This document shows positions 3,421 to 28,822 of a stretch of DNA of 40,829 nt, in pieces. Under the pieces are notes generated by a model. That model had not been told where the DNA came from. It saw only the letters and a program-made list of their open reading frames with translations, and did not search any database. Positions within the stretch are counted from its first letter, which is position 1. Each line of letters begins with the position of its first letter. A program made the position numbers and the translations under genes. Source of the DNA: a virus; the IMG/VR virus record IMGVR_UViG_3300043399_000937, positions 1 to 40,829 of that record; one strand, written 5' to 3'.

Positions 3421-3448
3421 CTTATATTTCTCCTTATTAAAGCAAGAT

Positions 3449-3481: not shown

Positions 3482-3522
3482 AATTATATATAAGTTGTCT
3501 TTAAAAATAAACAAGAGTTATT

Positions 3523-4169: not shown

Positions 4170-4995
4170 TTACTTGGCTCTTCTCAATTTCACTTAGGTC
4201 TTCATAATCTCTTAGACCTCTGCGTACTTGATCAATGACGTAATCGATATACGCTACATCGTATACTAACGTATCATTAATTCTTTGTCTATCTATTTCT
4301 ATCCATTTACGTCCATTCCATTTATATAGCTTGTTTGGTTTGCTATCAACTTTTAGGAATAGATCACCTTTTGCAGGATGTGCTGGCCATGCTGTGCCAA
4401 ATGTAGCTGAACCTTTTTGTGCAAATGGATCAAAGTTATCTACTTGAGGTGCAAGTTGTTCAGCAATATCTACTGATTGCTGAATTGGTACCTCAACAAT
4501 TTTTTCAACTGTTTTAATTACTTCAACTGGTTTTTCAACAATACGTTCAACTACCTTTTCTACTGGTACTTCAACGATCTTCTCAACAGTTTTGATTACT
4601 TCAACAGGTACTTCAACAATCTTCTCAATTACTTTTTCAATCGGAACTTCTACAGTTTTAATTACTTCAACTGGTTTTTCAACAATACGTTCAACTACCT
4701 TTTCTACTGGTACTTCAACGATCTTCTCTACTTCCTTAATAACTTCTACAGGAACTTCAACTGTGCGCTCCACAATCTTTTCAACTGGAACTTTAACAGT
4801 TTTAATTACTTCAATTGGTTTTTCAACCTCAACAGTCTTAGTCCTATATTTTACTACAGGAACTTCTTTAATTACCTCTACTGGGACTTTGACTGTCTTG
4901 GTTTTCGTTTTGTAGCGGATAACTTCTTGGGGGACTCTAATGGTTCTAACGAGGACTCTGGCAACAATTCCTCTTGAATTTGGATTTCCGCTAAG
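4141..4995 (-). CDS. VPVE-repeat protein, -1 frame half of a predicted frameshift fusion (284 codons)
   Basis: In this frame the sequence is open from just upstream of 5001 to the stop at 4141. It encodes about a dozen VPVEVIKTVEKI/KPVEVIK-like units, then a globular tail (FGTAWPAHPAKGD, LYKWNGRKWIEID) seen in phage proteins. There is no ATG, GTG or TTG before a poor GTG at 4771-4773, which lies inside the repeat array, so independent initiation would cut the array. Repeat units upstream of that GTG (RVPQEVIRY, KVPVEVIKEV) overlap the end of the 0-frame gene. The simplest reading is a -1 ribosomal frameshift at 4995-5001, giving a 574-aa fusion (290 + 284). Confidence 0.75.
   Translation of the reverse strand, partial: LSGNPNSRGIVARVLVRTIRVPQEVIRYKTKTKTVKVPVEVIKEVPVVKYRTKTVEVEKPIEVIKTVKVPVEKIVERTVEVPVEVIKEVEKIVEVPVEKVVERIVEKPVEVIKTVEVPIEKVIEKIVEVPVEVIKTVEKIVEVPVEKVVERIVEKPVEVIKTVEKIVEVPIQQSVDIAEQLAPQVDNFDPFAQKGSATFGTAWPAHPAKGDLFLKVDSKPNKLYKWNGRKWIEIDRQRINDTLVYDVAYIDYVIDQVRRGLRDYEDLSEIEKSQVIARIRDNKS
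4511..4728 (-). repeat. Two identical 74-bp direct repeats within the VPVE array
   Basis: Bases 4511-4584 and 4655-4728 are identical over 74 bp, 144 bp apart, within a longer degenerate array (about 4490-4920) encoding the VPVE/KPVE units. The identity points to recent duplication or gene conversion within the array. Confidence 0.9.
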
Positions 4996-9492: not shown

Positions 9493-9639
9493 TTATTCCT
9501 CTACAGTAATTACTGAACGAAGGATACCATTTGCATCGTAGTAATACTTGGTAACTTCAAACTCGCTTGTCTCTGTTACTTCTTTGGACCCATCTTTACG
9601 CTTGATGGTTTTGTATGTAAACGGTTTACGCTTTGTCAT
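9493..9639 (-). CDS. Small basic protein, 48 aa
   Basis: The ATG at 9637-9639 overlaps the end of the upstream gene, and TAA lies at 9493-9495. The protein begins MTKRKPFTYKTIKRKDGSKE and ends with an acidic VEE. It has its own promoter at 9646-9673, which would start the transcript close to the ATG. Function unknown. Confidence 0.65.
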   Translation of the reverse strand: MTKRKPFTYKTIKRKDGSKEVTETSEFEVTKYYYDANGILRSVITVEE

Positions 9640-9857
9640 GCTCTTACTATACGCTCCTTTGCGAGGATGTCAATAGTCATCTGATGGAGAGAGTCCATAT
9701 CTTCACGGCTCATATAAAAGTCCGTTGTAGGATCCCAATACTCGCCAGCCTTAGGATCATAATACAGCACCTTGCCGTTAGCATAAAAGAATGGGCCCTC
9801 AAGTCCCTTGCGGGGTTGCCACTTCTTATTACGTTCACCAAGCACACGGTAGCCCAT
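9636..9857 (-). CDS. Hypothetical protein, 73 aa
   Basis: The ATG at 9855-9857 is preceded by AGGAAG and overlaps the upstream stop (TAATG). It begins MGYRVLGERNKKWQPRKGLE, with GKVLYYDPKAGEYWDPTTDFY in the middle. No known motif. Its 3' end contains the -35 element of the next gene's promoter. Confidence 0.7.
   Translation of the reverse strand: MGYRVLGERNKKWQPRKGLEGPFFYANGKVLYYDPKAGEYWDPTTDFYMSREDMDSLHQMTIDILAKERIVRA
9646..9673 (-). promoter_or_regulatory. Sigma70-like early promoter
   Basis: TTGACA, a 16-bp spacer and TATAGT lie within the 3' end of the 9636-9857 gene, six bases before the ATG of the 48-aa gene. The spacer carries TCCT-CGCAA-AGGA. Confidence 0.7.
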
Positions 9858-10024
9858 TATTCTACTTCCTTCCCTTCGTAGCGGCGCCAATCATATGCAG
9901 TTGCTTTGAAAGACGAATCTTTAGACCACAACAACGCCTTTACTTCGTCGTCAAAAACCTTTTCGACACATTCCCAAATGTCGAGTCCGTCGCTATGACA
10001 GTGGTAACCTATCCATACCTTCAT
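9857..10024 (-). CDS. Small hypothetical protein, 55 aa
   Basis: The ATG at 10022-10024 starts MKVWIGYHCHSDGLDIWECV, and TAA overlaps the next ATG. The composition (WIGYHCH, WECVEKVFDDEVKALLW) is unusually Trp/Cys/His-rich for its size, but no complete metal-binding pattern is present. Function unknown. Confidence 0.65.
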   Translation of the reverse strand: MKVWIGYHCHSDGLDIWECVEKVFDDEVKALLWSKDSSFKATAYDWRRYEGKEVE

Positions 10025-10025
10025 C

Positions 10026-10157
10026 TTAGTTCGTCTTATAAATTACAGTTTGACCAGAAACGTGAAACTGTGCGGGCTTGTTATTGCTGACCATATGAAT
10101 AAACGGCAGCAGCGTAAATTGGATAAGCACAAAGAAGAAAACAAAGAGCAACTTCAT
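10026..10157 (-). CDS. Tiny membrane-anchored or secreted protein, 43 aa
   Basis: The first 22 residues (MKLLFVFFFVLIQFTLLPFI and on) form a strongly hydrophobic segment, an uncleaved anchor or signal, followed by a 20-residue polar tail. The ATG overlaps the stop of the upstream gene (TAATG). It is part of the early small-gene operon. Function unknown. Confidence 0.65.
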   Translation of the reverse strand: MKLLFVFFFVLIQFTLLPFIHMVSNNKPAQFHVSGQTVIYKTN

Positions 10158-10543
10158 TAGTACACTCGCACAATAAGGTGACCATTCTTACTCACCACAT
10201 CAACGTCACCAAGCGCCTGGAGCGGAGCATACAAGTTTTCATTCTTACGAGCGGCAGGAGTACGACTCAGGATGTGTCCAACCTGTTCCATCTTAATATT
10301 TTCAAACGGCTTCTTAGCATGTGTGCCAAGACCGCGATAGGTAAGGTACGTCACCTTACAGTTAAAAAATCGTTCGAGAATCTGGCAAACAGCCACAACA
10401 CGATCAATGTGCTTGGGGCTGTTAAACTTTTTATGGTGTAGCCTAAAAGCCTGGTCGCTCTTATCACGGGCATCAAGCAAGCTGCCCAGCGGGTTACAGC
10501 TACGAACAGTGTTAACAGTATCTTCCTTCACAAGAGTACGCAT
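10157..10543 (-). CDS. Hypothetical protein, 128 aa
   Basis: A basic soluble protein beginning MRTLVKEDTVNTVRSCNPLG, with RLHHKKFNSPKHIDRVVAVC in the middle and a beta-rich end. It is the first gene behind a near-consensus promoter (10578-10605), so it is likely among the earliest and most expressed genes here. Family not recognised. Confidence 0.75.
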   Translation of the reverse strand: MRTLVKEDTVNTVRSCNPLGSLLDARDKSDQAFRLHHKKFNSPKHIDRVVAVCQILERFFNCKVTYLTYRGLGTHAKKPFENIKMEQVGHILSRTPAARKNENLYAPLQALGDVDVVSKNGHLIVRVY

Positions 10544-10577
10544 GGGAAACTCCCTATTTGTTAACTTTTACTGTTAC

Positions 10578-10605
10578 AGTATAGCACCTTTTTGGTGCGT
10601 GTCAA
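10578..10605 (-). promoter_or_regulatory. Near-consensus sigma70 early promoter, palindromic spacer
   Basis: TTGACA, a 16-bp spacer and TATACT lie 34 bp upstream of the ATG at 10543. The spacer contains the perfect inverted repeat GCACC-AAAAA-GGTGC. The region 10544-10609 holds no gene. Confidence 0.85.
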
Positions 10606-10609
10606 CCGT

Positions 10610-10774
10610 TTATGCGGCTTTGGGGGTATAACGGGCAACAATAGCATCTACACGCTTTGCGTGTGCTTTGGTAACACGCTTGGGCTTTTTTACACCCTTA
10701 GCGTGTGCAGCAGGAGCCTTGGTCACAGCAACAGTAGAGGAAGCAACGAGCGCTTGGAGTTCCAACTTGGTCAT
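10610..10774 (-). CDS. Small Ala/Lys-rich basic protein, 54 aa
   Basis: The ATG at 10772-10774 follows an AGGGAAT ribosome-binding site; TAA is at 10610-10612. After MTKLELQALVASSTVAVTKA comes a basic stretch (AHAKGVKKPKRVTKAHAKRV). The composition resembles histone H1-like or other nucleic-acid-binding tails, so binding to DNA or RNA is plausible but inferred from charge alone. Confidence 0.7.
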   Translation of the reverse strand: MTKLELQALVASSTVAVTKAPAAHAKGVKKPKRVTKAHAKRVDAIVARYTPKAA

Positions 10775-10811
10775 TTGTAATTCCCTATTTGTTGTTAACT
10801 GCTATATGTAC

Positions 10812-10839
10812 ATAATATAGCCAAACGCTTTGGAGTCAA
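10812..10839 (-). promoter_or_regulatory. Sigma70-like early promoter, palindromic spacer
   Basis: TTGACT, a 16-bp spacer and TATTAT lie 37 bp upstream of the ATG at 10774. The spacer contains CCAAA-GCG-TTTGG. The remainder of this divergent region (10840-10939) shows no gene. Confidence 0.7.
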
Positions 10840-10939
10840 CCAAAAAGACACCAAAAAAGCAAAAAAGATTCCTTAATGAATTCAAGCACTTAGCAGTACC
10901 CCAAAAACCTTAAGAATTACAAGAACTTAGCGTTTTAAC

Positions 10940-10947
10940 AATAAATA
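10940..10947 (+). promoter_or_regulatory. T4-type late promoter of the endolysin gene
   Basis: AATAAATA lies 21 bp before the endolysin ATG, followed by an AAAGGGG ribosome-binding site. It is the only clear plus-strand late box in the window. Confidence 0.6.
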
Positions 10948-10968
10948 CATACATAAAGGGGAAATACC

Positions 10969-11454
10969 ATGGAATGGTTTGATACCGCAAAAAGTTTGCT
11001 AGGAACTAAAGAAGTTGCAGGATCTAGGAACAATCCAAAGATACTTGCTTGGGCCAGAGAGGTAGGCGGATGGACTGCAAAGTTTTACAATGCAGATGAA
11101 ATCCCATGGTGTGGGTTGTTTGTTGCTTATTGCATGAAAAAGAATGGCATACCAGTACACGATGGTGTATTAAGTGCGCTATCTTGGAACAGTTGGGGAA
11201 CTCCGCTTGCAAAGGGTGTACCAGGTGCAGTAATGGTATTTGTCCGTCCAGGCGGTGGTCACGTTGGATTTTACGTTAGCGAGGATAAAGACGCTTATCA
11301 CATATTAGGCGGAAATCAGAGCGACAACGTAACAGTTACCCGCATTGCGAAGAATAGACTTAAAGGTATCCGTTGGCCAAAAGGAAAACCGGCCCCTACA
11401 CAAGGACCGGTCTACGCAAAGTTTACTGGGGCATTAAGCACTAACGAAGCTTAA
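10969..11454 (+). CDS. Endolysin-like cysteine peptidase (NlpC/P60-CHAP type), 161 aa
   Basis: The protein matches the TIGR02594-like family: WxxxAxxxLGxKE at the start, then IPWCGLFVAYC with the catalytic cysteine C48, and GGGHVGFYV with histidine H98. A third polar residue may be N116 in GGNQS. Such enzymes cut peptide bonds of peptidoglycan. There is no signal peptide, so export to the periplasm would need a holin, for which the coiled-coil/TM protein at 28502-28795 is a candidate. It is transcribed opposite to its neighbours from a late box. Confidence 0.85.
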   Translation: MEWFDTAKSLLGTKEVAGSRNNPKILAWAREVGGWTAKFYNADEIPWCGLFVAYCMKKNGIPVHDGVLSALSWNSWGTPLAKGVPGAVMVFVRPGGGHVGFYVSEDKDAYHILGGNQSDNVTVTRIAKNRLKGIRWPKGKPAPTQGPVYAKFTGALSTNEA

Positions 11455-11771
11455 TACGGTACGTAATCACATACCTTCTTCTTTACACGGACATAAGTCC
11501 CGGTGTTTGGATTGTAACGACGAACTGTCTTCCACCAGCATTCACGCACATATTCTACTTGTGGTTGAACATAAACTGGTGGAGGCGGTGCAGCGTAGAC
11601 TGGGTATGCAGGATAACGTGGACGCCCAATTGCTTCTCCAATGATTAGGCCACCAAGTGCGCCACCTAGGACACCAATAATAACTTCCTCGGAATTGTCT
11701 GCCTTTGCTGGAACAGTAAAAACTGTAACAGCCATAGCAATGGCACAAATGCTTGCAATAATCTTCTTCAT
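11451..11771 (-). CDS. Exported glycine-zipper protein, 106 aa
   Basis: MKKIIASICAIAMAVTVFTVPAKA is a signal peptide with a signal peptidase I site after AKA. The mature part has a glycine zipper (GVLGGALGGLIIGEAIG), a Pro/Tyr-rich stretch and a C-terminal part with two cysteines (REC, KVCDY). Glycine-zipper proteins insert in or span the outer membrane. It could be a host-derived envelope protein used in lysis or exclusion (inference). A TATAAATA box precedes it by 20 bp, so it is probably late. Confidence 0.8.
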   Translation of the reverse strand: MKKIIASICAIAMAVTVFTVPAKADNSEEVIIGVLGGALGGLIIGEAIGRPRYPAYPVYAAPPPPVYVQPQVEYVRECWWKTVRRYNPNTGTYVRVKKKVCDYVPY

Positions 11772-11791
11772 ATTAATCTCCGTTAAGTTAG

Positions 11792-11799
11792 TATTTATA
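11792..11799 (-). promoter_or_regulatory. T4-type late promoter
   Basis: A perfect TATAAATA lies 20 bp upstream of the ATG at 11771, overlapping the end of the upstream gene. Confidence 0.8.
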
Positions 11800-12394
11800 T
11801 GTCCTGCCCAGGCACTTTAGGCTGTTGTCCTTCAGCGTTAGGCTTTTGTTCTAGTGGAGCAGTGTCAATTGGGGGGAGTTTCTTCGACTCGTCTAGACAT
11901 GCAAGAAGTTTTTGCACTGCGGCAGTTGAACCATCTAGTGGAATATATGCCGGCTGAATGTCGCCTGGCATTAGGATACGCATCTCAGACATTTCCATAA
12001 ATGCTGGAATAAAGCTGTTAACATCAATGCCGCGGATTGCAATTGTATTCTTGTTAATAAGTGAGTATGTCATATCGCCACCAACTACTTGGTTAGCACG
12101 ATTAACTAGATTCATTCTAAATGAATAGTCACCTGGGGCGTCAGCAATGTTCCATTCATAGTTTTGGAACCAAATATAAAGTTCACCAGACTTGAGGTCT
12201 TTAATGAGCTGCATAGTGCTGCCATCTTGCCACTTTGTTTCGGCTACGCAAGCTGCATTCTGTGTTGCGTTTCCAGCATTACCAAAAACGTTCCATGCAC
12301 CTGTTTGTCCACCACTATAAAAAATAGTCTCAGCAAATGCCTGTGTGGCGAAAAGACTTGCTGCAAGCACGGTTGAAAGTAATAGTTTCTTCAT
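11795..12394 (-). CDS. Exported protein of unknown function, 199 aa
   Basis: The start at ATG 12392-12394 gives a textbook signal peptide, MKKLLLSTVLAASLFATQAFA, cleaved before ETIF. A longer frame would run into the tRNA and is not real. The mature protein has two cysteines and a beta-rich body, a C-terminal LDGSTAAVQKLLACLD element resembling short periplasmic proteins of alphaproteobacteria, and a disordered Pro/Gln tail. It lies between the tRNA and the glycine-zipper gene. I do not recognise a named family; a host-acquired periplasmic protein is likely. Confidence 0.8.
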   Translation of the reverse strand: MKKLLLSTVLAASLFATQAFAETIFYSGGQTGAWNVFGNAGNATQNAACVAETKWQDGSTMQLIKDLKSGELYIWFQNYEWNIADAPGDYSFRMNLVNRANQVVGGDMTYSLINKNTIAIRGIDVNSFIPAFMEMSEMRILMPGDIQPAYIPLDGSTAAVQKLLACLDESKKLPPIDTAPLEQKPNAEGQQPKVPGQDI

Positions 12395-12415
12395 GTTGAC
12401 CTCAAAGTTTAAAAA

Positions 12416-12492
12416 TGGTAGGGGTTGAGGGCCTCGAACCCCCGACACGTCGATTATGAGTCGACTGCTCTCACCAACTGAGCTAAACCCCC
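12416..12492 (-). tRNA. tRNA with CAU anticodon, probably tRNA-Ile2 (AUA)
   Basis: The 77-nt gene folds as a complete cloverleaf with CCA encoded. It has a 7-bp acceptor stem with a G1-U72 wobble, a 4-bp D stem, a 5-bp anticodon stem GTCGA/TCGAC, loop CTCATAA, a 5-nt variable loop, and a T arm with TTCGAGG. The anticodon is CAU. The loop alone cannot separate elongator Met from Ile2, but a TilS gene lies 18 bp upstream, and the anticodon arm closely resembles that of E. coli tRNA-Ile2, which argues for lysidine-modified Ile2 reading AUA. Confidence 0.9.
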
Positions 12493-12510
12493 AATTTCTA
12501 AGTATTTTTA

Positions 12511-13113
12511 TTATATATTATCTAATTTAGAAAGCAACTTCTTTTTAATAGTCTTTTGGATACCTGGATTAATCTTTTGGACAACTGGCATCGCAACATG
12601 TCGAACATAGTTACGCATATATTTAGTGTCAAAATTGGACATGTCGTCGTACCATTCCATGTTATGCTTATTACACCAATTAACTAATTCTTGCTTTGGT
12701 GTTACGAGAAAAGGACGAACAACGTTGCCACGATAAATTTCTGGAAGTTTAGGTTGACCATGCATACTACTCCAAACCCAAGTTTCAACGGCATCATCTA
12801 AGTGGTGTGCTGTAACTACTGGTGCATCAAGTTGTTCAAAATACTTGTAACGCTCATTGCGCCAGTATTCTTCCATGCTTTCATCTTTTTTTCTCGAACG
12901 CATGACAGCACCATCAACCATCTTGATGTTATGTGTTTTGCAGTAACGAGAAAGAAAAGCAAATGCTTCCTTACTTGCAACAGTGCCGTGGTCAAAAAAT
13001 GCCGCAGTAACATCGTGTTTCCTGCTAAGGAAATTTAATGCAGCCATAGAGTCTACTCCGCCGCTACAAGCGACGTAGAACGTTTTTGGCAATTTTACTA
13101 ACAATTTAATCAT
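12511..13113 (-). CDS. tilS: TilS, tRNA(Ile)-lysidine synthetase, catalytic domain only, 200 aa
   Basis: TilS attaches lysine to C34 of the CAU tRNA so that it is charged with Ile and reads AUA. Visible motifs are the PP-loop SGGVDS (17-22), the WRNERYKYF segment, AHHLDDAVETW (102-112), RPFL (133-136) and the DDMSNFDTKYMRNYVRH block equivalent to the EDPSN...RN.IRH signature. The protein stops after the N-terminal domain; the E. coli enzyme has 432 residues with two extra C-terminal domains. It is co-oriented with the CAU tRNA, and its start overlaps the oxygenase stop. Confidence 0.93.
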   Translation of the reverse strand: MIKLLVKLPKTFYVACSGGVDSMAALNFLSRKHDVTAAFFDHGTVASKEAFAFLSRYCKTHNIKMVDGAVMRSRKKDESMEEYWRNERYKYFEQLDAPVVTAHHLDDAVETWVWSSMHGQPKLPEIYRGNVVRPFLVTPKQELVNWCNKHNMEWYDDMSNFDTKYMRNYVRHVAMPVVQKINPGIQKTIKKKLLSKLDNI

Positions 13114-13673
13114 TAGACTACATTCAAATTAATAATACAACGCATTCCGTTTTTAGGTTGCTCTGCTGTATGATAGTAGCTACCATCAAATAGCACAACT
13201 CGCCCTTGCTTTGGTGTTACTCTTGCTAATACAGGAAAATCCTCTGCATGTAAATTCCTATTTTGGTAATCAATATTCCTGTGATCGCAAATAATAGTAT
13301 CGCCATCTGCGTCCATTACGTAATATAAGACTACCAAATGATCTTCGTGTGGATCAATATCCGTATGCAAATTATCTACTTCTGTTCCAATTACATTTGG
13401 GTTAAGTGGAAACTGTAAAATAGTTTTACCTTGGAGTATACCGTTAAACTTATATTTCATTTTTTCAGCACCAAGATGTCCGAGAATATCAACATCCAAT
13501 GCACTTACCTTATTACCGTTTGCATATAATCTATGCGTCATACAAGGGCGTTGCTGCACCCCTGTGCCAAACGTAACGTCTTGGGTATAAAACCAAGGAA
13601 ACTGTTCCCCAAGCACCCATGCTTTATAGCGTTCCTGTAAACTTACAGGAATAAAATCATCAATGACTAGCAT
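13113..13673 (-). CDS. 2-oxoglutarate/Fe(II)-dependent oxygenase, 186 aa
   Basis: The facial triad is visible: H103 and D105 in NLHTDID, and H168 in SYYHTAE, followed by R178, which would bind 2-oxoglutarate. The double-stranded beta-helix is bracketed by LVVLYYV and GRVVLFDG. Such phage enzymes hydroxylate proteins, nucleotides or small molecules; the substrate cannot be told here. Its 3' end overlaps tilS, raising the possibility of a tRNA or translation-related substrate, which is only a neighbourhood inference. Confidence 0.88.
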   Translation of the reverse strand: MLVIDDFIPVSLQERYKAWVLGEQFPWFYTQDVTFGTGVQQRPCMTHRLYANGNKVSALDVDILGHLGAEKMKYKFNGILQGKTILQFPLNPNVIGTEVDNLHTDIDPHEDHLVVLYYVMDADGDTIICDHRNIDYQNRNLHAEDFPVLARVTPKQGRVVLFDGSYYHTAEQPKNGMRCIINLNVV

Positions 13674-13900
13674 TATCCAATAATCTCTTGAAACTTTTCA
13701 GCTACCTCAGGGGCAAGCTTTTGTAGTAGTTCGGTTTTACCAGATAACCCACTTTCATATTGGTCCAACGCCCATGCAAGCTTTGATCTAATATTTTTGA
13801 TTTTACGGCTTTTGTTTTTATCGTCTTGAACTTGCTCTAGAGCTTCTTCAAGATAAGCATTAACTTTTTGCCATCTTTCCATTTGTCTGTTGTCTAGCAT
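13673..13900 (-). CDS. Hypothetical helical protein, 75 aa
   Basis: It begins MLDNRQMERWQKVNAYLEEA and is predicted helical throughout, with a charged QVQDDKNKSRKIKNIRSKL stretch. It is the first gene of the oxygenase-tilS-tRNA operon behind a good early promoter, with a TAGGAG ribosome-binding site. Function unknown. Confidence 0.75.
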   Translation of the reverse strand: MLDNRQMERWQKVNAYLEEALEQVQDDKNKSRKIKNIRSKLAWALDQYESGLSGKTELLQKLAPEVAEKFQEIIG

Positions 13901-13920
13901 AGTTGAACTCCTATGCTAAC

Positions 13921-13949
13921 AATATAGTTGATGTGTTACATCAAGTCAA
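13921..13949 (-). promoter_or_regulatory. Sigma70-like promoter of the oxygenase-tilS operon, palindromic spacer
   Basis: TTGACT, a 17-bp spacer and TATATT lie 20 bp upstream of the ATG at 13900. The inverted repeat TTGATGT-AAC-ACATCAA fills the spacer and overlaps the end of the -35. It starts just after the terminator of the upstream gene. Confidence 0.85.
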
Positions 13950-13952
13950 AGG

Positions 13953-13981
13953 AAAAAAAGGGGCTCATATTTCAGAGCCCC
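13953..13981 (-). terminator. Rho-independent terminator after the DUF992 gene
   Basis: GGGGCTC and GAGCCCC form a 7-bp GC-rich stem around an 8-nt loop, followed on the minus strand by seven T. Confidence 0.9.
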
Positions 13982-14001
13982 AATTTAATTTACAAAGTAA
14001 A

Positions 14002-14499
14002 TTACTCTGCGCGGAGACGTAGTGAACCTACGCCAGCAGCAACGTTAAGCCCAGTCTGGGCACCAATGCTGAGTGGTTGTAGTGCAATGCTCTTCTTGAA
14101 ACCACCAAGTAGAGCGTTAGCTGTTACACCAACAACAGCAGTGGCTTCGGCGCTAGCACCGAGGTAAGTACCTGCGAGACTCTCTGGCTGAGCCTTGCCT
14201 GGAGCAATAACAGCCCAAACAAGTGTCTGTGCGCCAGTTACACCAATGTCTACTCCAAGACGGCTAAGCTCAGCGGAATAAAGCTGCTCTTCACCGTTAA
14301 TGCCCTTATAAAGGCAATCAGCTTCCTTAACGGAACCAATAACCCAACCAACGCTAGAATCAAAATGGCAAGTTAATGTGCCAACCTTAAAACCGGCGCT
14401 CTTTGAGCTTGCATCTGCTGCCATACCAGTTACGGTCATACCAACAAGGGCGAGTGCTGCAACAGCAGACTTAATATAGTTCTTCAATGTATTCTCCAT
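14002..14499 (-). CDS. DUF992-family exported protein, 165 aa
   Basis: After a signal peptide (MENTLKNYIKSAVAALALVG..., cleaved after GMA) the mature protein shows the DUF992 pattern: GTLTCHFDSSVGWVIGS, a second cysteine, RLGVDIG, WAVIAP, LAGTYLGASAEATAVVG, then SIALQPLSIGAQTGLNVAAG. I know DUF992 proteins from alphaproteobacterial envelopes, with unknown function. The codon and base composition is visibly more GC-rich than the surrounding genes, consistent with capture from a host. The ATG at 14497-14499 is used; the longer frame has no good start. Upstream, 14500-14602 holds no gene and no clear promoter. Confidence 0.88.
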   Translation of the reverse strand: MENTLKNYIKSAVAALALVGMTVTGMAADASSKSAGFKVGTLTCHFDSSVGWVIGSVKEADCLYKGINGEEQLYSAELSRLGVDIGVTGAQTLVWAVIAPGKAQPESLAGTYLGASAEATAVVGVTANALLGGFKKSIALQPLSIGAQTGLNVAAGVGSLRLRAE

Positions 14500-14602
14500 T
14501 CTAAAAGTTAATTGCTGGTTACGCAATCCAGCGTCATCTTTCGTGTGACCGATCTATCGTTCACGACACAACTTTACGGTATGTGCCTACCACTTTACAT
14601 TA

Positions 14603-14824
14603 CTAGCCGTTACTTACAAAGTCATTAAGTTTTTTGGCTTCTGTAATAATTTCCTCAGACGTTGGCATTGTTGGCAACTTTGGGAATGCAGTATTTGGAC
14701 TATTCTCACGCTCGTAAGTGTATTGGTCCATAAGTGCTTGGCGAGAGTTATACGCCTTTTCGTTTAGTGTGGTTTGTGCTAGTTTTAAGAGTTCCAAACG
14801 GATCTCATATGGATTTAATGACAT
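14603..14824 (-). CDS. Hypothetical protein, 73 aa
   Basis: It begins MSLNPYEIRLELLKLAQTTL, with an AAGGA ribosome-binding site, and has a Pro-rich middle (FPKLPTMPTSEEI). Small proteins with this opening are familiar in T4-like marine phages, but I cannot name a function. It follows the tmRNA gene directly and may be read from the same late promoter. Confidence 0.75.
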   Translation of the reverse strand: MSLNPYEIRLELLKLAQTTLNEKAYNSRQALMDQYTYERENSPNTAFPKLPTMPTSEEIITEAKKLNDFVSNG

Positions 14825-14849
14825 AGTTTTTCCTTTCTGTGTGTCTGTG

Positions 14850-15210
14850 TCAAATGTTGGGATTCTGTTCCAAGGCTCCCAACGGCCCGTTGAGCTTATG
14901 CTGCTACGAGGTCGCGATCGCGAACTACGATAGACTGAGCAATTTGCTCGTTACGAACGAAGTTATCGTTTGCATTTATTATCTGCGCTGTAAAGTCAGT
15001 CGCCTCACTGTAAACTCCCTTGCCCTTATTTCACTCTTGTCGATCCTAGTTCACCCCCATCAAAAGCACAGCCCGCTTTGCCTATTTCAGCTTATCCAAG
15101 AAACGACCTGGCATATTTGCAACTATGTTGTCCAGGCGGCTGTGTTTTTGGTGGAGGTGTGGGGTACCGCCCCCCAGTCCAATAAGTCTTTAAAGCACTA
15201 TCAACGCTTA
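14850..15210 (-). ncRNA. ssrA: Circularly permuted two-piece tmRNA (alphaproteobacterial type)
   Basis: Reading the minus strand, the acceptor piece comes first. A T arm (UGGGG, 7-nt loop, CCCCA; 15160-15176) leads to CACCUCCACCA ending at 15149. About 90 nt later the coding piece starts with GGGGGUGAACUAGGAUCGAC (15058 down). GGGGGUG pairs with CACCUCC to form the 7-bp acceptor stem, including the G3-U70 pair that specifies alanine. AAUAAG (15030-15025) pairs with CUUAUU (15186-15181) to form helix 2. A tag frame follows at 14973-14896, then a 7-bp hairpin (GUUGGGA/UCCCAAC, 14883-14856). The precursor must be cut in the intervening loop. Outer ends are approximate. tmRNA rescues stalled ribosomes and tags their products. 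Confidence 0.92.
14896..14973 (-). other. tmRNA proteolysis-tag reading frame, 25 codons plus stop
   Basis: The resume codon GCA (14973-14971) starts a tag reading ANDNFVRNEQ... and ending DLVAA before TAA. ANDN openings and VAA endings are typical of alphaproteobacterial tags. At 25 residues it is longer than the usual 10-15. No Shine-Dalgarno is expected, since the ribosome enters by trans-translation. Confidence 0.85.
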
Positions 15211-15216
15211 CAAAAG

Positions 15217-15224
15217 TATTTATA
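15217..15224 (-). promoter_or_regulatory. T4-type late promoter of the tmRNA
   Basis: A perfect TATAAATA overlaps the end of the DUF2061 gene. Transcription would start near 15210, just upstream of the tmRNA acceptor piece, so the tmRNA would be made late. Confidence 0.75.
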
Positions 15225-15402
15225 GCTTCTTTATTCTTCCCCAGTCAATATTAGTCCACACTCTTTCGTGGAAATAATACGCAATAGTTTGGACAATATT
15301 CATAAGGATTGCGGCTTCCCAACCAGCCCAGTATGCCGCAATTACGGTTGCTATAATTCGCCAAGTAATGGCTTTTACAATTGATCTACTATGTGTTTCC
15401 AT
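15220..15402 (-). CDS. DUF2061 membrane protein, 60 aa
   Basis: The sequence matches the short DUF2061 pattern: RSIVKAITWRIIATVIAAYWAG, a second hydrophobic helix, and the ending YYFHERVWTNIDWGR. Two membrane helices are expected (about residues 12-27 and 30-43). The family is widespread in bacteria and present in some phages; function unknown. The ATG stands only seven bases after a CATAAATA late box, with no room for a ribosome-binding site. Confidence 0.85.
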   Translation of the reverse strand: METHSRSIVKAITWRIIATVIAAYWAGWEAAILMNIVQTIAYYFHERVWTNIDWGRIKKL

Positions 15403-15409
15403 GTCGGGA

Positions 15410-15417
15410 TATTTATG
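15410..15417 (-). promoter_or_regulatory. T4-type late promoter, possibly leaderless
   Basis: CATAAATA is followed by seven bases and then the DUF2061 ATG. By T4 spacing, transcription would start at or next to the start codon. Confidence 0.55.
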
Positions 15418-15712
15418 CGTAGGTCAATCTATACATAATAGCCATGTCCTCTAAAGTTTGGACAGTTTCTTCAAATGTTTTGATTAACTTACGATGACGA
15501 GTAGTTTGCTTTTTAAGCCGACGACAATTAGTTTCTTCTCGTGCAATATGCATTGCATACTGGTCTGCATTAGTCATCAACTTGTAAAGCATACTATGAT
15601 CTCGCCATGCGTGTGCCATTTCAGCACCCTCGCCCCTCAATTGAATTGATTTCCAAAGCGTCCCGCGCTTTTGATTCCAATCCGTAAAATCATAAAAGAA
15701 ATTGTGTTCCAT
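15413..15712 (-). CDS. Hypothetical protein, 99 aa
   Basis: The ATG at 15710-15712 gives MEHNFFYDFTDWNQKRGTLW; a TTG five codons earlier is possible. The second half is a charged helix (REETNCRRLKKQTTRHRKLI) that may form a coiled coil. It lies between the hub gene, whose transcription ends here, and the DUF2061 gene. Function unknown. Confidence 0.7.
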   Translation of the reverse strand: MEHNFFYDFTDWNQKRGTLWKSIQLRGEGAEMAHAWRDHSMLYKLMTNADQYAMHIAREETNCRRLKKQTTRHRKLIKTFEETVQTLEDMAIMYRLTYA

Positions 15713-15753
15713 AACTACGTTATACAATCAACTCGTTTTTATGCAACCAATTT

Positions 15754-18700
15754 TTAGTAATTATTGGCAATATTTTGTAGCAATGCCTTACTTACACTTT
15801 GGACACCAAAGATATCTTGGAAATCTCCTTCCATCATACCTAAATGGAAAGATGCACTTGCAGTTAATATTCGTTGTAATATAGTAACTACTAAGTCCAA
15901 TCTAACTCCAATTGAATCCAAATATTCTTCAGTTGAATTAGATAGTTTTTGATTGAATACATCATTGGTCAAATTTTCCTTACTAATAATTGCTGAAACA
16001 ATTTCTTTGTAAGGACCAATAATGTAACCATCTGTAGGTAACTCATATGCATATCCTATAGCTAGTTCATCCACAGATCGTACATATATTTCATTATTTT
16101 GATTATTGTTATAAACTTCTGCTAATGCATCACTCATTATTAAGTTGCCATCAACATAGAAAATCATTTGACGTATTATGTTTTGTATCAAAATATCAAC
16201 ATCACTTTGAATAGTAGTTTGTTGATTTTTAATTCTATCTAAAACATATGCGTTATACATTTTATCAGTAGCGTTTTGTACCCAAATTTCACCAGCGCGA
16301 GTTGGGTTTGGTGTCCAAATTCCAGTGTGATCAATAAAGTTAACTGACTTGTTTGCATCGCTACCGTCAGTTAACACATAACCATATGCTGGCGGGGCCA
16401 TGCCATAATTGCTTAATCTTTGAACGTTTCTGCTCTGCTTCATAATTGCATCAATACGTTGACCATGATAATCGTTTGTAACTAGCCTGCTTAAGAAATC
16501 TGCCGGGCGACCATGACCTGTATCTAATGCCAATGACTCTAAACTATTTGCAAGTTGCCAAATATCAACTATCTTTGATTCTACTTTTACAGAATCAACT
16601 TGGTACTTTGCAGTAATTAATGTACCTACAGAAGGTGGAGTATCAAACACGAGTTGATTAGTAGTAGAATTGTAGGTATAATTTAATCCCTCAGCTTGTT
16701 GTACTCCGCTTAAACTTACTTGAAGACCAGATGCAACGGTACTATATAGCGGGAAGTTAGTTGTAACACCGTCACCTCTATAATGAGTTGTCCTGTTTGG
16801 ATCTCCAAACTCAATGCCATACTTTCCACGCATCTTTTGTTCGTGTGCTAAGAACTCTGCACTCATAGTATGTAATGCTTCGAGCTCGTAAAGTTTGTTT
16901 TCTAAATCTGGATCTGCATTTGAAAGTGTTTTAATAAAATCTAAATCATACTCAATAGCATCAACAATATCTGATACCGCGTCATCTAATGTTAGGTAAT
17001 CACCAAATGTATATACTGATACTGCAGGAACTCTCACATAATCTATACCAAGTACATTAACAATTGTTGGCGCAGTTAGTGTATCTGTTAACAACCCCAT
17101 TAATTCATATAGATCATCAGTAACAGAATCATCATACAATTCTTGTAGAAGTGCATCTATTTTTGGTAGCGTATCATTATGTACATAACCTGCCATTGAT
17201 CCAATAAAGTCTGCAACAGTTGGTCCTTCACTACTAAACCAACTATTTGAAGGCATATCATAACTTAATTGTACATACTCATCAATTCTAATTGGTTGAC
17301 TTTCCTGTGCAAGTTCCTCATAATCCTCAACTGTTTCAAGACTAGCTATAATAAATCCAAGTTCTCGCAAAGTTTTTAATCTTCCAGTTCCACCACAAAT
17401 TGAAAGAGTTAATGCAATATCACGCAAGTTTTCAAACTTATTATATTCGTAGCTATTAGAAAAAATTATTTCTGGATCAAGTAAATCAGCAAGAGTTTTA
17501 ATGTTTACTGAAGGGTTAATTTCAAATGCTGTTTTAATTTGATTAATAACCTCTTCATCATTGATGTCAGTTAAAATTTCTATCAATAAATCGTGGTTTT
17601 CATCCCTTTGTAACTCTGCTAATGTTAATTTGTGTTCAACTAGTTTGCTTGTTAAACCAGATGTAATACCGTGACCGTGTTCAATAATTTGTCTTATAAG
17701 TTGTCCGGGTGTACCAATGTTTAATAAATCAGTTAGGTCGCCTAGTTTACCTAAGCTTATTAAATCAATTGCAAGAGCATTTAAATCATTACTTAGATTA
17801 CCAAATCCCTGTGTTATCATAGAATTGTAATCATGATACATTGATGTAAAACCATCAAATGTTGGTTTGTTAATTAATTCTTCTAATGCTTCTTTAAATG
17901 GAAGTGTAAAATCTTTTTTGTTTTCTACAGAATTTTGAAGTTTCACTTCAACAAATACAAGATTATCGGCAATGCCTTCTTGTGAAGATTCATTTGTAAT
18001 ACCTAGTGCAGTTAACTTACTTGATATATCAAATCCTGGCAACTGTGTGTTTGTTACAGCGGCAGCAGCACTCAATGACGCACTACCTAATGGACCGTTC
18101 GCGGCATTACCAAAAACTTGACTTACCGATCCTGTTAATGCACCTTTTAAATCTGCACCACTTGCGGCTGCACCCATTGCACCATTAAACACTTGACCAA
18201 AACCACCTAAGTTAGGCATATTTTGTCCAATTAATGAAGTAGCTTGATTTTTAATAACATCAGTCATAAGACCTGTTAAATTGCCACCTTGTAATGCAGC
18301 AGGAATTACACCTGTTAAGCTCGGTAATATTCCACCGCCAATACCTTGAACTAATCCTGAAATTTGACTTGTTATTTGTGTAAGCGGATTAGCTAATCCA
18401 CCAGATAGCATAGAACCAATAGGACCTGCTGCGGCCCCCAATGCTTGTTGCATAAGACCTTGTGCAGCAGCCATTGGATTTGCTCCCATAGCACCAAATG
18501 CACCTAGTGCGGCTCCCATTGCTCCATTTACACCAAGTCCTTGACCTTGTGACATACTTGATGCTGCGGCTGCTGCACCAGAAGAAATAGGTTTACAACC
18601 GCCACCTGAACCTTCTCCACAACCGCCACCTCCGCCGCCGCCAGCGCTTCCTCTAGATTCACCAGTTCCGCCGTTAGCTTCTTGACAAGTTGTTGGCCCA

Positions 18701-19365
18701 TCATACCGTGTATTACCTGGGTCTGAGTTATTAGGAGTATAAGGATTTGCCTTGCCTTCGCAGACTCTTCCTCTTTGTCCTACTGGACCACCATTCTGGA
18801 AGTGCATAGTATCGTGATAATAGTCACCACCAAAATTACCACCCCACCCAATTGCTCCACCCGAGTCTTGACAAACTTGACTGGCTAAAGATTCGTATGC
18901 TCTAAATGAAGGTGTATCGCCATTGTATAGGTTGTTTAAAGCGCAACCATTTTTATCTACAATTACAACGTCAACTGCATTACCGCTTGGATGCTTAGAG
19001 CTGCCAACGCTACGTGAACCAACGCCAGAAAACGCATAAGCTTTTAATCCAGTGTCTGCGTGTGCAGCGTTCCATTTATCTAAACTACCTTGTAATCCAG
19101 ATACAGGGCCTTTAATTCCGTTGTATACACCTGATCTTGGACCATTACCTCTGCTAGTAGCTTGTCCGTTACCCTGGCCACCATTAGCGCAAGGATCTGT
19201 GCCTGATTGTTTACCAAGTGCTTGATTTGCAGCTCTTTCTGCTACTGCTTTTGGATCTGAGAAAGAACCTAGAGCTGCACCGCCTGCTGACCCAGAAGGC
19301 AATGCTGGTGCTACTGCATTTTTTGCTGCATCTGTTGCTGTGTTAGTTGTATTTGTTTCTGCCAT
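15754..19365 (-). CDS. Baseplate hub/tail-lysin multidomain protein with M15 peptidase, 1203 aa
   Basis: After a low-complexity N-terminus comes a D-Ala-D-Ala carboxypeptidase-like M15 domain (about residues 95-192). It carries the zinc motif SKHPSGNAVD (H125, D132) and DTMHF (H188). A Gly-rich linker (about 230-260) and Ala/Gly-rich helices (about 265-440) lead to a long region without known motifs. Near residue 865 is a GDGVTTNFPL...GLNYTY beta-domain of the kind found in phage fibres. The next gene encodes the PAAR tip, so this is probably the tail protein that digests peptidoglycan during DNA entry, in place of T4 gp5 lysozyme. The PAAR stop lies just downstream in the same operon. The assignment to hub is inferred from size, peptidase and position. 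Confidence 0.8.
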   Translation of the reverse strand: MAETNTTNTATDAAKNAVAPALPSGSAGGAALGSFSDPKAVAERAANQALGKQSGTDPCANGGQGNGQATSRGNGPRSGVYNGIKGPVSGLQGSLDKWNAAHADTGLKAYAFSGVGSRSVGSSKHPSGNAVDVVIVDKNGCALNNLYNGDTPSFRAYESLASQVCQDSGGAIGWGGNFGGDYYHDTMHFQNGGPVGQRGRVCEGKANPYTPNNSDPGNTRYDGPTTCQEANGGTGESRGSAGGGGGGGCGEGSGGGCKPISSGAAAAASSMSQGQGLGVNGAMGAALGAFGAMGANPMAAAQGLMQQALGAAAGPIGSMLSGGLANPLTQITSQISGLVQGIGGGILPSLTGVIPAALQGGNLTGLMTDVIKNQATSLIGQNMPNLGGFGQVFNGAMGAAASGADLKGALTGSVSQVFGNAANGPLGSASLSAAAAVTNTQLPGFDISSKLTALGITNESSQEGIADNLVFVEVKLQNSVENKKDFTLPFKEALEELINKPTFDGFTSMYHDYNSMITQGFGNLSNDLNALAIDLISLGKLGDLTDLLNIGTPGQLIRQIIEHGHGITSGLTSKLVEHKLTLAELQRDENHDLLIEILTDINDEEVINQIKTAFEINPSVNIKTLADLLDPEIIFSNSYEYNKFENLRDIALTLSICGGTGRLKTLRELGFIIASLETVEDYEELAQESQPIRIDEYVQLSYDMPSNSWFSSEGPTVADFIGSMAGYVHNDTLPKIDALLQELYDDSVTDDLYELMGLLTDTLTAPTIVNVLGIDYVRVPAVSVYTFGDYLTLDDAVSDIVDAIEYDLDFIKTLSNADPDLENKLYELEALHTMSAEFLAHEQKMRGKYGIEFGDPNRTTHYRGDGVTTNFPLYSTVASGLQVSLSGVQQAEGLNYTYNSTTNQLVFDTPPSVGTLITAKYQVDSVKVESKIVDIWQLANSLESLALDTGHGRPADFLSRLVTNDYHGQRIDAIMKQSRNVQRLSNYGMAPPAYGYVLTDGSDANKSVNFIDHTGIWTPNPTRAGEIWVQNATDKMYNAYVLDRIKNQQTTIQSDVDILIQNIIRQMIFYVDGNLIMSDALAEVYNNNQNNEIYVRSVDELAIGYAYELPTDGYIIGPYKEIVSAIISKENLTNDVFNQKLSNSTEEYLDSIGVRLDLVVTILQRILTASASFHLGMMEGDFQDIFGVQSVSKALLQNIANNY

Positions 19366-19367
19366 AA

Positions 19368-19652
19368 TTAACTTTTACCCACAATGAATGTTGGACTGCC
19401 TGCAACCCTAGGATGACCACAAGTATCTTTATTTGTTTCTATTGTAACTTTTTTACCGCCCACAATAAATGAACTTGAACCTTCGTCGGTTTTTGCTTTG
19501 CAATGCTTTTTCACTTCGGGACATGGTTTATGAGGGCTGACTGGGCTCCCAATTGGAGCAACTGGGCGCCCGTCAATAATCATTGATTTATCACCGCTTA
19601 TTATTCTGCCACCTGCAGAATTACGGTCCCCTACCCTGTGTACTTTTGGCAT
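19368..19652 (-). CDS. PAAR-repeat tail-tip protein, 94 aa
   Basis: The start MPKVHRVGDRNSAGGRIISG and the spaced histidine and cysteine residues (SPHKPCPE, CGHPR) are typical of PAAR proteins, whose cone caps the tail spike and binds a metal ion (T4 gp5.4). The ATG at 19650-19652 has GGAAGGA seven bases upstream. An earlier ATG pair at 19710-19715 would add 21 residues but has no ribosome-binding site. It overlaps the upstream gene by 32 bp and ends two bases before the hub gene. Confidence 0.9.
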   Translation of the reverse strand: MPKVHRVGDRNSAGGRIISGDKSMIIDGRPVAPIGSPVSPHKPCPEVKKHCKAKTDEGSSSFIVGGKKVTIETNKDTCGHPRVAGSPTFIVGKS

Positions 19653-19968
19653 CGAGCAATCCTTCCAAACTGCTTGCTGGTTTAATGCCGCTTGTTCCGC
19701 GAGTGTATTCATCACTTACTTCTTTGCGAGTAAGCGCGGACATAGCTACTGCATTTCTTTGCAAGTTTATATTAACTGTATTTAACTCTACAGAAAACAT
19801 GCTTGGAAGCATACCTAAACTGCCCTGAGGTGTTGGCGCAAGTGTTACTGGTTTTGTAACAATAAACTCAGCCATTGTTTCACCTTGGTAACAAGCGATT
19901 ACTTCCTCACCAGTTATTAGTTTGAAAGTAACCACATCGCCTTGATTGTAACTTTTATTAAGAAGCAT
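19621..19968 (-). CDS. Hypothetical protein with Lsm-like beta-barrel pattern, 115 aa
   Basis: Residues about 10-50 (GDVVTFKLITGEEVIACYQG, then EFIVTKPVTL) resemble the strand pattern of small Sm/Lsm-like barrels common in T4-like marine phages. The tail is polar. The ATG overlaps the glutaredoxin stop (TAATG) and the 3' end overlaps the PAAR gene. Position among tail genes suggests a virion or tail-assembly role, but it follows the nrd genes too; function unknown. Confidence 0.7.
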   Translation of the reverse strand: MLLNKSYNQGDVVTFKLITGEEVIACYQGETMAEFIVTKPVTLAPTPQGSLGMLPSMFSVELNTVNINLQRNAVAMSALTRKEVSDEYTRGTSGIKPASSLEGLLDAKSTQGRGP

Positions 19969-20222
19969 TAAGCTGCTAACCTTTCCATAATTTCATGCTT
20001 GTGCATAGTCTTTAATGTAGTCCAACCACCATTAATAAGTGGTTCGTCTCCTGCATAAATTACAGGAAGTGTACGATGCCCTTGTGAACGAAGCCAATTA
20101 GCTTTGTCCTCATTAACTGTAATGTCTACTTCTACATAATCAATACCGTGATCGTTAAGATACTGTTTAGCGGCAGAGCAATATTGGCAACCTGGTTTTG
20201 TATATACTGTGAGTGTCTTCAT
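19968..20222 (-). CDS. nrdC: Glutaredoxin, 84 aa
   Basis: The CPxC-type redox motif is CQYC (C12, C15), preceded by YTKPG. The cis-proline motif TLPVIY and the glycine pair INGGW complete the glutaredoxin fold. Immediately downstream of nrdB with an overlapping start, it is the likely electron donor for the ribonucleotide reductase. Confidence 0.92.
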   Translation of the reverse strand: MKTLTVYTKPGCQYCSAAKQYLNDHGIDYVEVDITVNEDKANWLRSQGHRTLPVIYAGDEPLINGGWTTLKTMHKHEIMERLAA

Positions 20223-21331
20223 AGGCTTATTCCTTTAAATGTGTTTTCGTTTACGTCCTGTTTTACGGCGCCAATTGTATAACTTGAAATTTCTGTTTCT
20301 TGTGGGGCAACTTGTACTTCCATGCCGCTAATCCACTTTTGTGTCCAAGGAAGAGGGTTTGATCCAATCTTGTATGGAGATGGTAGACCTACGCTTTGCA
20401 TACGACGAGCAGTAATCCACTCAACATATTCATTTAACAATTGTTCATTGAGACCGATCATTGATCCGTCTTTAAATAGATATTTTGCCCATGCTTTTTC
20501 TTGGTTAGCAGCATCAACAAACATCTTAATCGATTCTTCTTTAGTTTCCTCTGCAATTTTCACAAATACAGGATCATCCTTTGGAAGTGTTTTTAGCAAA
20601 AGTTGCGTCCCCGCCAAGTGAAGATTTTCATCTCTTGCAATAAACTTAATAATCTTAGCATTGCCTTCCATTCTCTTTGTTTCAGCAAATGCCCAAGAGC
20701 AAGCAAAGCTTACATAGAAACGAACACCTTCAAGAATGTTTACACTCATAAGTGCAAGCCATAGTGCTCGCTTATGCTTGTAAGCAGCATCAGGTGTTTC
20801 TTCATATGTTTTTGGTAGTGTAGCAAGAACATTATTATAGTGAATTAGTTCATCGTAGTTCTTACTAATGTCCTTAGCACAATCAACAATCTCCTCAATA
20901 TCCATTAGCTCATCAAAAATTACGCTTGGATTAGCATACACATTGCGAATAATGTGTGTATATGAACGTGAGTGAATTGTTTCACTAAAAGTCCATGTTG
21001 TAATCCAATTCTCAAGTTCTGGAAGAGAACAGATAGGACCAAAGGCCACGCTTGGTGCGCGGCCCTGTACTGAGTCCAATAGAATTTGTCTCTTGAGATT
21101 ACTTGTGAAAATATGCTGTTCATGAGCAGTAAGCGACTTAAAGTCCTTAGCATCACGCAATGTATCTACTTCTTCTGGTCGCCAAAAGAAACTAAGCTGC
21201 TTGTCAGTTAGCTTATCGATTGCGGGATACTTCATAGTATCATAACGTTGAATAGTTACTCCACCGTTTGAATCAAGGAACGCCAAACTTTTAGTGTGGT
21301 CGCTTTTATTTTCAATATCAAATACGCTCAT
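20219..21331 (-). CDS. nrdB: Class Ia ribonucleotide reductase small subunit, 370 aa
   Basis: The sequence closely follows E. coli NrdB: FWRPEEVD at the start, the iron ligands in LLDSVQGR, FSETIHSRSYTH (ligands E and H and the radical tyrosine in RSY), NILEGVRFY and ARDENLHL. The C-terminus ends in a tail that would bind NrdA. It generates the tyrosyl radical for NrdA to reduce ribonucleotides. All expected metal and radical residues are present, so it should be active. Confidence 0.96.
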   Translation of the reverse strand: MSVFDIENKSDHTKSLAFLDSNGGVTIQRYDTMKYPAIDKLTDKQLSFFWRPEEVDTLRDAKDFKSLTAHEQHIFTSNLKRQILLDSVQGRAPSVAFGPICSLPELENWITTWTFSETIHSRSYTHIIRNVYANPSVIFDELMDIEEIVDCAKDISKNYDELIHYNNVLATLPKTYEETPDAAYKHKRALWLALMSVNILEGVRFYVSFACSWAFAETKRMEGNAKIIKFIARDENLHLAGTQLLLKTLPKDDPVFVKIAEETKEESIKMFVDAANQEKAWAKYLFKDGSMIGLNEQLLNEYVEWITARRMQSVGLPSPYKIGSNPLPWTQKWISGMEVQVAPQETEISSYTIGAVKQDVNENTFKGISL

Positions 21332-21340
21332 AATTTCCTC

Positions 21341-23644: not shown

Positions 23645-23667
23645 AGAACTTCCTTTAATAGATTAAT

Positions 23668-23696
23668 AGTTTAGTTTAACTTGTTTGCTAGGTCAA
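23668..23696 (-). promoter_or_regulatory. Sigma70-like promoter of the nrd operon
   Basis: TTGACC, a 17-bp spacer and TAAACT lie 23 bp upstream of nrdA, overlapping the end of the upstream gene. The -10 is a modest match. Confidence 0.45.
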
Positions 23697-24123
23697 TTTT
23701 TGTGTATGCAAAAATTGGATTCCCTAAATTGGGGATCGTGGATTTATTTACGACAGTTCTAGGTGCCCAATTAAGCATGTATAATCCCGAGTTGACCGAG
23801 CATAAATTAATCCAACCTTCGTTGGATTGATAAACCTCTAAGGTTATTTCATCAGTTATATGGGGATTATCGCATAAAGAGAGTGTATATACCATACCAA
23901 GGGATATCCCTAAATCACAATAGATATTATCATTTATTAGATTCCAAGGATCTGGTAGTTCATTTAAATCATCAGGTGTTAGATAATGATTTACGAGCGG
24001 TGCTTTTGCCCACGCATTTGCTACTTCTTTTAAGCAATCTTCAAGAGACATGGGCGTGAGGGCATTACGCCACTCACGCCACTTTAAAATACGATCTCGA
24101 CAATTAATGTCGTGCCAAATCAA
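23671..24123 (-). CDS. Hypothetical protein, 150 aa, TTG start
   Basis: The frame begins at TTG (24121-24123), which overlaps the tailspike stop as TTGA. The conserved-looking opening WHDINCRDRILKWREWRN favours this start over a later ATG. The protein is soluble, with no recognised catalytic motif. It follows the tailspike directly and may be a chaperone or a small virion component (inference from position). Confidence 0.7.
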   Translation of the reverse strand: MIWHDINCRDRILKWREWRNALTPMSLEDCLKEVANAWAKAPLVNHYLTPDDLNELPDPWNLINDNIYCDLGISLGMVYTLSLCDNPHITDEITLEVYQSNEGWINLCSVNSGLYMLNWAPRTVVNKSTIPNLGNPIFAYTKIDLANKLN

Positions 24124-25697: not shown

Positions 25698-25720
25698 ATC
25701 TTTATCCTACTATATGCTAG

Positions 25721-25728
25721 TATTTATG
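25721..25728 (-). promoter_or_regulatory. T4-type late promoter of the tailspike
   Basis: CATAAATA lies 23 bp before the tailspike ATG and overlaps the end of the upstream nuclease gene. Confidence 0.7.
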
Positions 25729-26410: not shown

Positions 26411-26445
26411 TTAATAATTTTAATGAATTTACTTTAATAACGCAA

Positions 26446-26799: not shown

Positions 26800-26804
26800 T
26801 TTAA

Positions 26805-27830: not shown

Positions 27831-27853
27831 TTGGGTATCCCTACTATATTGCT

Positions 27854-28795: not shown

Positions 28796-28822
28796 CTTTA
28801 CCCTTTAATTAATAGTCGATGG

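Follow-up and report, generated by a model that had tools for sequence, protein, structure and literature searches.

The tmRNA gene

The window, by which we mean the whole stretch of DNA analyzed (an IMG/VR record of 40,829 bases), carries on its minus strand at 14853-15224 a complete circularly permuted two-piece tmRNA gene of the alphaproteobacterial type. In an Rfam search with cmscan, RF04321 (tmRNA_permuted) matches minus strand 15211-14896 with 112.9 bits (E 2e-21, full model 1-213) and RF01849 (alpha_tmRNA) matches minus strand 15252-14853 with 91.8 bits (full model 1-355). Both scores exceed the gathering cut-offs, which are 47 bits for RF04321 and 50 bits for RF01849. ARAGORN independently calls a permuted tmRNA (tmRNA*) with the 25-codon tag ANDNFVRNEQIAQSIVVRDRDLVAA*. 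An earlier note, made from the sequence alone, had proposed such a gene and named the Rfam models as a check; both families and ARAGORN bear it out.

In transcript order the 3' piece comes first (15211-15149), followed by an intervening segment of 90 nt (15148-15059) and by the 5' piece from 15058. The acceptor (3') piece, at 15149..15211 between the start of the RF04321 match and the CCA end, holds one half of helix 2, the T arm, the 3' acceptor strand and CCA. The mRNA-like (5') piece (14853..15058, minus strand, from RF04321 and RF01849) comprises the GGGGGUG acceptor strand, helix 2, the resume site, the tag and the alpha-type 3' end. Reading the sequence confirms the permuted order and the anatomy claimed before: the acceptor stem 5'-GGGGGUG / CACCUCC-3' has 7 bp with the G3-U70 pair, the discriminator is A and CCA is encoded. 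The T stem is UGGGG/CCCCA and its loop, GGCGGUA, is of the type found in the alpha model. The tag reading frame (14896..14973 on the minus strand, including the stop) runs open from the resume codon to the LVAA end and UAA, and ARAGORN agrees with the earlier reading of a complete 25-codon tag. The intervening segment, delimited by the sequence and the Rfam matches (15059..15148, minus strand), is presumably removed by RNase P together with a 3' tRNA nuclease.

Genomic setting

Directly upstream of the tmRNA gene lies an ORF for a DUF2061 membrane protein of 60 aa (15220..15402, minus strand; PF09834, E 2e-8), and directly downstream a 73-aa ORF (14603..14824, minus strand) that has no family match and is probably co-transcribed with the tmRNA. 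Both have counterparts at the same place in a relative, G005, which is syntenic with the window over a tail protein, a small ORF, DUF2061, the tmRNA, the 73/74-aa ORF, DUF992 and a TilS-like gene. Relatives with a tmRNA include G005, G007, G047 and G049.

A second contig (75,233 bases), identical to the window across 9578-29365, extends the genome. NrdA and NrdB are recognizable in the ORF translations, and the other phage genes include a primase, a DnaB-like helicase, a UvsY-like protein, a tail sheath and a tail tube. By this predicted gene content the phage is T4-like and contractile-tailed, as had been claimed earlier. Its host is probably an alphaproteobacterium, judging from the alpha-type tmRNA. 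This deserves some caution since Melnitz, which has a tmRNA of the same type, infects a gammaproteobacterium (PMC9004378). A search for an SmpB gene found none in the phage or in the contigs of 49 relatives, so host SmpB would be required.

Several other observations concern the surroundings. A cluster of protein-quality and ribosome genes, all on the minus strand, encodes homologues of ClpS (2489-2797), Hsp20 (2980-3483) and ribosomal protein bS21 (3523-3756). The ClpS adaptor matches PF02617 (E 1e-27), and ClpS diverts ClpAP from ssrA-tagged substrates. ClpS is found in the contigs of 8 of the 49 relatives, whether or not a tmRNA is present. A single module of ClpS and tmRNA found no support: only three of the eight ClpS-bearing helicase-relatives have a permuted tmRNA match, and the long contigs G016 (289 kb) and G023 (95 kb) carry ClpS without one. 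Because the two do not co-occur consistently, we claim no shared function.

The tRNA at 12416-12492 (minus strand) has a CAT anticodon, and its anticodon arm (CGACUCAUAAUCG) resembles tRNA-Ile2 and not tRNA-Met. It adjoins a PP-loop (TilS-like) ORF at 12511-13113 (minus strand); the TilS family converts CAU to an isoleucine anticodon. The TilS-like ORF recurs in G005, and a tRNA-CAT is also found near the tmRNA in G007. Further away, at 36127-36720 and 36702-37301 (both minus strand), a 197-aa ORF matches the phage DNA polymerase family phrog_11778 at equal length and the adjoining ORF looks by eye like a GIY-YIG-type homing endonuclease; perhaps the two represent a split DNA polymerase gene. 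Finally, a low-complexity protein at 4141-4773 (minus strand) has repeated VEVPVEVIKTVEKIVEVPVEK-like units before a short virion-structural-protein-like domain.

A probable composite promoter

The T4-type late box TATAAATA is located at 15217..15224 on the minus strand, where it overlaps the stop codon of the DUF2061 ORF, and it occurs at the same offset in relatives. With T4 spacing, transcription would start at about 15211, which is the first base of the RF04321 match, and the box then lies at -13..-6. This agrees with the placement proposed earlier. The same box is usable as a sigma70 -10 element (TATAAA), and upstream of it a -35-like TTGACT (15243..15248, minus strand) is separated from it by an 18-bp spacer; TTGAC stands at the matching place in relatives. 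Given the 5/6 match of this -35, the 18-bp spacer and the absence of TGN, sigma70 activity may be weak in the window itself.

Of the 114 non-redundant viral permuted tmRNAs listed, 59 have TATAAATA at -52..-45 relative to the T stem and another 7 have it at some other position of the 150 nt; with the same script, none of 96 alphaproteobacterial tmRNA genes shows it at the conserved offset. The accompanying host-type signals are conserved as well: TTGAC with a 17-bp spacer accounts for 45 of the 50 spacings measured among the 65 listed relatives with the box, and the extended -10 has T in 50/63 and G in 43/63. In T4 late promoters, by comparison, the -35 is not conserved (PMC2988020). This argues for a composite promoter that is not purely late. 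From sequence conservation, then, the promoter combines host sigma70 signals with those of T4 late promoters, which points to expression both early and late. The late promoter named in the earlier note is thus retained as far as the exact box is concerned, with support from the relatives, but in most of them the box is joined to a -35 of the sigma70 type and to an extended -10.

In about 83 kb of the phage, the tmRNA site included, the gene strand carries nine occurrences of TATAAATA and the opposite strand one. The sites are mostly located 13-91 nt upstream of ORF starts, for example that of the tail tube gene, although the count is only mildly raised (9 observed against about 5.7 expected). 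In the upstream sequence inspected, TTGAC accompanies only the tmRNA site among the ten. No homologues of gp55, gp33 or gp45 were identified among the ORFs scanned, which are part of the ORFs of an incomplete genome.

Two simpler promoters have to be weighed. The gene might be purely late and transcribed only by gp55-RNA polymerase, which would fit the exact box, an expected start at the beginning of the 3' piece and the imperfect -35 of the window. It would also fit the octamers that begin with TATAA at the promoter place: of about 76 among the viral loci listed, 60 are TATAAATA, 4 are TATAAGTA and about 10 are TATAAT forms. However, a purely late gene would not be expected to keep the spaced TTGAC and the extended -10 in most relatives, and the Melnitz tmRNA promoter, which has the same composite sequence, is predicted to be early (PMC9004378). 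We regard a purely late gene as possible but rather unlikely. A purely sigma70 (early) promoter, with TATAAATA as nothing but its -10 box, would account for the -35, the spacer and the extended -10 of the relatives. In that case TATAAT should dominate, yet the full late octamer does, and the same octamer precedes structural genes in this phage; such a promoter is quite improbable. The composite promoter is preferred to both.

Intervening segments as a proposed cargo slot

Loop lengths were determined with one script and one rule for viral and bacterial loci, allowing loops up to 3,000 nt. The viral loci come from two IMG/VR pattern scans of at least 120 loci each, in which alpha-like 5' halves are sampled and the contigs are fragments. 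Among the IMG/VR loci listed, 169 of 175 ARAGORN tmRNA calls are permuted. Viral loops have a median of 79 nt and a maximum of 499, with at least 90 nt in 57 of the 132 distinct loci listed; for 97 distinct bacterial loci the median is 28 and the range 4-71 nt. The window loop of 90 nt therefore exceeds the bacterial maximum.

Longer loops frequently contain reading frames. Taking the 53 listed loops that reach 95 nt (Melnitz among them), an ORF of 30 codons or more is present in 42, and 30 of those ORFs are preceded by a Shine-Dalgarno-like motif within 16 nt. Seven loop-ORF families have at least two members, with a pooled pN/pS of 0.00-0.57; for the largest (14 loci) the ratio is 0.36, and 0.26 and 0.19 for two of its subsets. 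Since three of the seven consist of two or nearly identical sequences, the case rests on the 14-member, HWISW, ICINNYS and MEIIWH families. By these ratios the loop ORFs of relatives are often under purifying selection. The ORFs end in one of three ways: at the TGA of the conserved ...TGAT/GGGG junction, within the mature 5' piece at the UAG of its GGGGNYGAAAUAG, or deeper in that piece. A TGA at the junction is frequent even in loops without an ORF and also ends 24 of the 97 bacterial loops, so that it is by itself no proof of coding. Pfam and PHROGs give names to almost none of the loop ORFs, the exception being the family of L140 and L164, which matches DUF6356. A MEIIWHILL-type protein is encoded by the loop ORF in L065 and L321, and in Melnitz by a gene of its own that lies immediately upstream of the tmRNA (L457 1284-1484); from these positions it appears that the gene has moved into or out of the loop.

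G005 offers the case closest to the window. Its loop measures 370 nt and holds a 118-aa ORF, a distant relative of a Prevotella Lak phage protein, against the 90-nt structured RNA of the window. The block 13672-15066 is 84.5% identical to G005, compared to 71-74% in most other syntenic segments, which would place one boundary of a possible exchange at the loop. Because of the long insert the G005 tmRNA scores 45.1 bits with RF04321, below the cut-off of 47, and is not called by ARAGORN.

A structured RNA element in the window loop

Within the loop of the window, a conserved structured RNA element occupies 15067..15144 on the minus strand (R1 match, 106.4 bits). It consists of a closing stem, a two-part hairpin, a 3-bp hairpin and conserved linkers. 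Six copies are known to us. Besides the window, tmRNA loops with other tags contain it in G007 (L322), G053 (L332) and G052 (L456), and two copies are situated in tRNA arrays, in G050 (L334 2913-2990, enclosed by a long perfect inverted repeat) and G051 (L458 4101-4166). A permuted tmRNA is also present on all six contigs. The earlier description of the region as holding no ordinary gene omits this element, a conserved structured RNA in the window whose place in the intervening segment is taken by a protein gene in relatives.

The structure pairs 95.1% of cells, compared to 30-39% in slid versions. Double changes are seen at 12 pairs against 4.8 in shuffles, and the covariation score is 0.461 against 0.185. 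The folding energy is no better than shuffles would lead one to expect, so covariation is the only support for the element. The copies were collected with exact core patterns (26-39 positions); the strict conservation of the core is therefore partly due to ascertainment, while the stems outside the patterns are unaffected. In 14800-15300, Rfam 15 yields only tmRNA families up to E 10, and a known ribozyme or riboswitch was discarded as the identity of the element for lack of a match. Its covariation makes it a candidate for a new structured RNA.

Could the segment instead be a short coding sequence, such as MPGRFLDKLK*? Most copies do share the frame R-L-[DE]-x-x-V-A-N-[ML]-x-G-R-F-L-D-K-L-K-stop. 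A start codon common to all copies is absent, however, and L456 lacks 1 nt, which disrupts the only shared frame but leaves the helices intact. In addition, L334 has a closing stem substituted pair by pair, and that of L458 differs again. A coding sequence is thus very unlikely, and a protein gene in the window loop was rejected on the L456 frame break and the helix covariation. Taken with the structured RNA of the window, the protein genes in the loops of many relatives indicate that the loop is a cargo slot exchanged by phages.

Tag peptide

The window tag of 25 aa is the longest among the viral loci listed, where the next has 22 and the others 8-15; recognized bacterial tags all have 9-14 aa. 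It retains the ANDNF start and the -AA end. In G005 (L323) the peptide is identical, with one synonymous change. As this near-identity falls within the block that looks recently exchanged, it is weak evidence for selection on the tag. Another tag of unusual length, ANTKALGFADLTVGMSELRLAA (22 aa), belongs to an unrelated viral permuted tmRNA (L059 10951-11319).

It is highly improbable that the locus is a functionless piece of host ssrA, decayed or captured, left for example by imprecise excision or recombination: phages are known to acquire ssrA fragments (PMC9004378) and the tag much exceeds the usual 8-15 aa, but both pieces, CCA, G3-U70, the resume site and the open tag with its stop are all intact, four relatives retain complete tmRNAs whose tags differ and whose promoter offset is fixed, and no integrase was seen among the genes examined.

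Proposed function

The best explanation, to which we assign a probability of roughly 0.85, is a functional-looking phage gene for an alpha-type two-piece tmRNA with a composite promoter and a loop that serves as a cargo slot. The composite promoter, with the host sigma70 -35/-10 overlapping the T4 late box, would start the precursor at about 15211. Host tRNA-processing enzymes would cleave it into two parts, an acceptor piece and a coding piece, which pair to form the tRNA-like domain, to be loaded by host AlaRS and host SmpB, and the loop cargo would be released as a separate RNA. During infection the phage tmRNA would then rescue ribosomes stalled on broken or cut mRNAs and add the AANDNF...LVAA degradation tag, keeping ribosomes free and tagging truncated products from early to late infection. 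The tagged products may be degraded by host proteases, by analogy with other tmRNAs. We infer the timing of transcription, the processing, the charging, the rescue activity and the release of the cargo as a separate RNA from the features described above.

For the Melnitz tmRNA the published guess is early-only expression and host protein degradation (PMC9004378). Conservation of the composite promoter across many phages argues that the tmRNA is wanted throughout infection, including the phase in which structural proteins are made.

We lean, somewhat tentatively, towards a further step. The loop may be a cargo bay for exchangeable protein genes or structured RNA, expressed early and late from the composite promoter, and the cuts that mature the tmRNA would then sever the cargo mRNA at its stop codon or within it. 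As a consequence, tmRNA production and cargo expression would be coupled. RNase P processing of the structural RNA and translation of the nested gene would compete on one transcript, and the cargo message might itself be a rescue substrate. There are practical consequences as well: cargo loops hide small genes, such as the unannotated loop ORF of Melnitz, and long inserts push real tmRNAs such as that of G005 below detection thresholds.

Comparison with known systems

The novelty attributed earlier to a phage permuted tmRNA does not hold. In PMC9004378, 53 of the phage tmRNA gene structures are two-piece, 50 of them marine or aquatic and including those of the T4-like phages Melnitz and Mosig, so a permuted tmRNA in a T4-like phage is already known; PMC11915505 lists 79 bacteriophage tmRNA sequences. 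A literature search, conducted largely outside subscription papers, found no report of cargo in permuted-tmRNA loops. Apparently unreported are the combined early/late promoter and the reuse of the middle segment for protein genes or structured RNA.

BLAST of the tmRNA and its surroundings against phage isolates returned only nrdB fragments and a 42-nt match to the Sinorhizobium phage Phosso. The latter covers the T arm/CCA region and falls in an unannotated gap of this 469-kb phage (PV764938.1, L336, approximately 3001-3042). ARAGORN finds no tmRNA at that place, which from the matching sequence is possibly another permuted tmRNA with a long loop.

The closest cellular counterpart is alphaproteobacterial ssrA (RF01849, for example Caulobacter), which shares with the window the permuted order, the tRNA-like core, the ANDN- start and the -AA end. 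The window differs in three respects, as the bacterial genes have tags of 9-14 aa and cargo-free loops of 4-71 nt, and lack TATAAATA at the conserved offset. Among phage systems, T4 RNA C and D are small stable RNAs encoded among the phage tRNA genes. They may be likened to the window element in their setting, both being structured non-tRNA RNAs in tRNA-type transcripts. T4 late promoters (PMC2988020) share the TATAAATA box and its spacing to the expected start, but have no conserved -35, whereas most relatives of the window add a sigma70 -35 and an extended -10.

Most similar are Melnitz (MZ577097.1) and the pelagiphage Mosig, which as T4-like phages carry an alpha-type permuted tmRNA like that of the window. 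The Melnitz promoter is described as early, with neither the late box nor the loop ORF mentioned in the passages of PMC9004378 consulted; its sequence is the composite TTGACA-N17-TATAAATA, whereas the window has TTGACT and the longer spacer. Melnitz further differs by a tag of 14 aa against 25 and by a glutamine riboswitch (RF01739) after the tmRNA, which the window lacks. Its long loop holds an ORF that reads into the tmRNA and is unannotated in the record, where the loop of the window holds a structured RNA.
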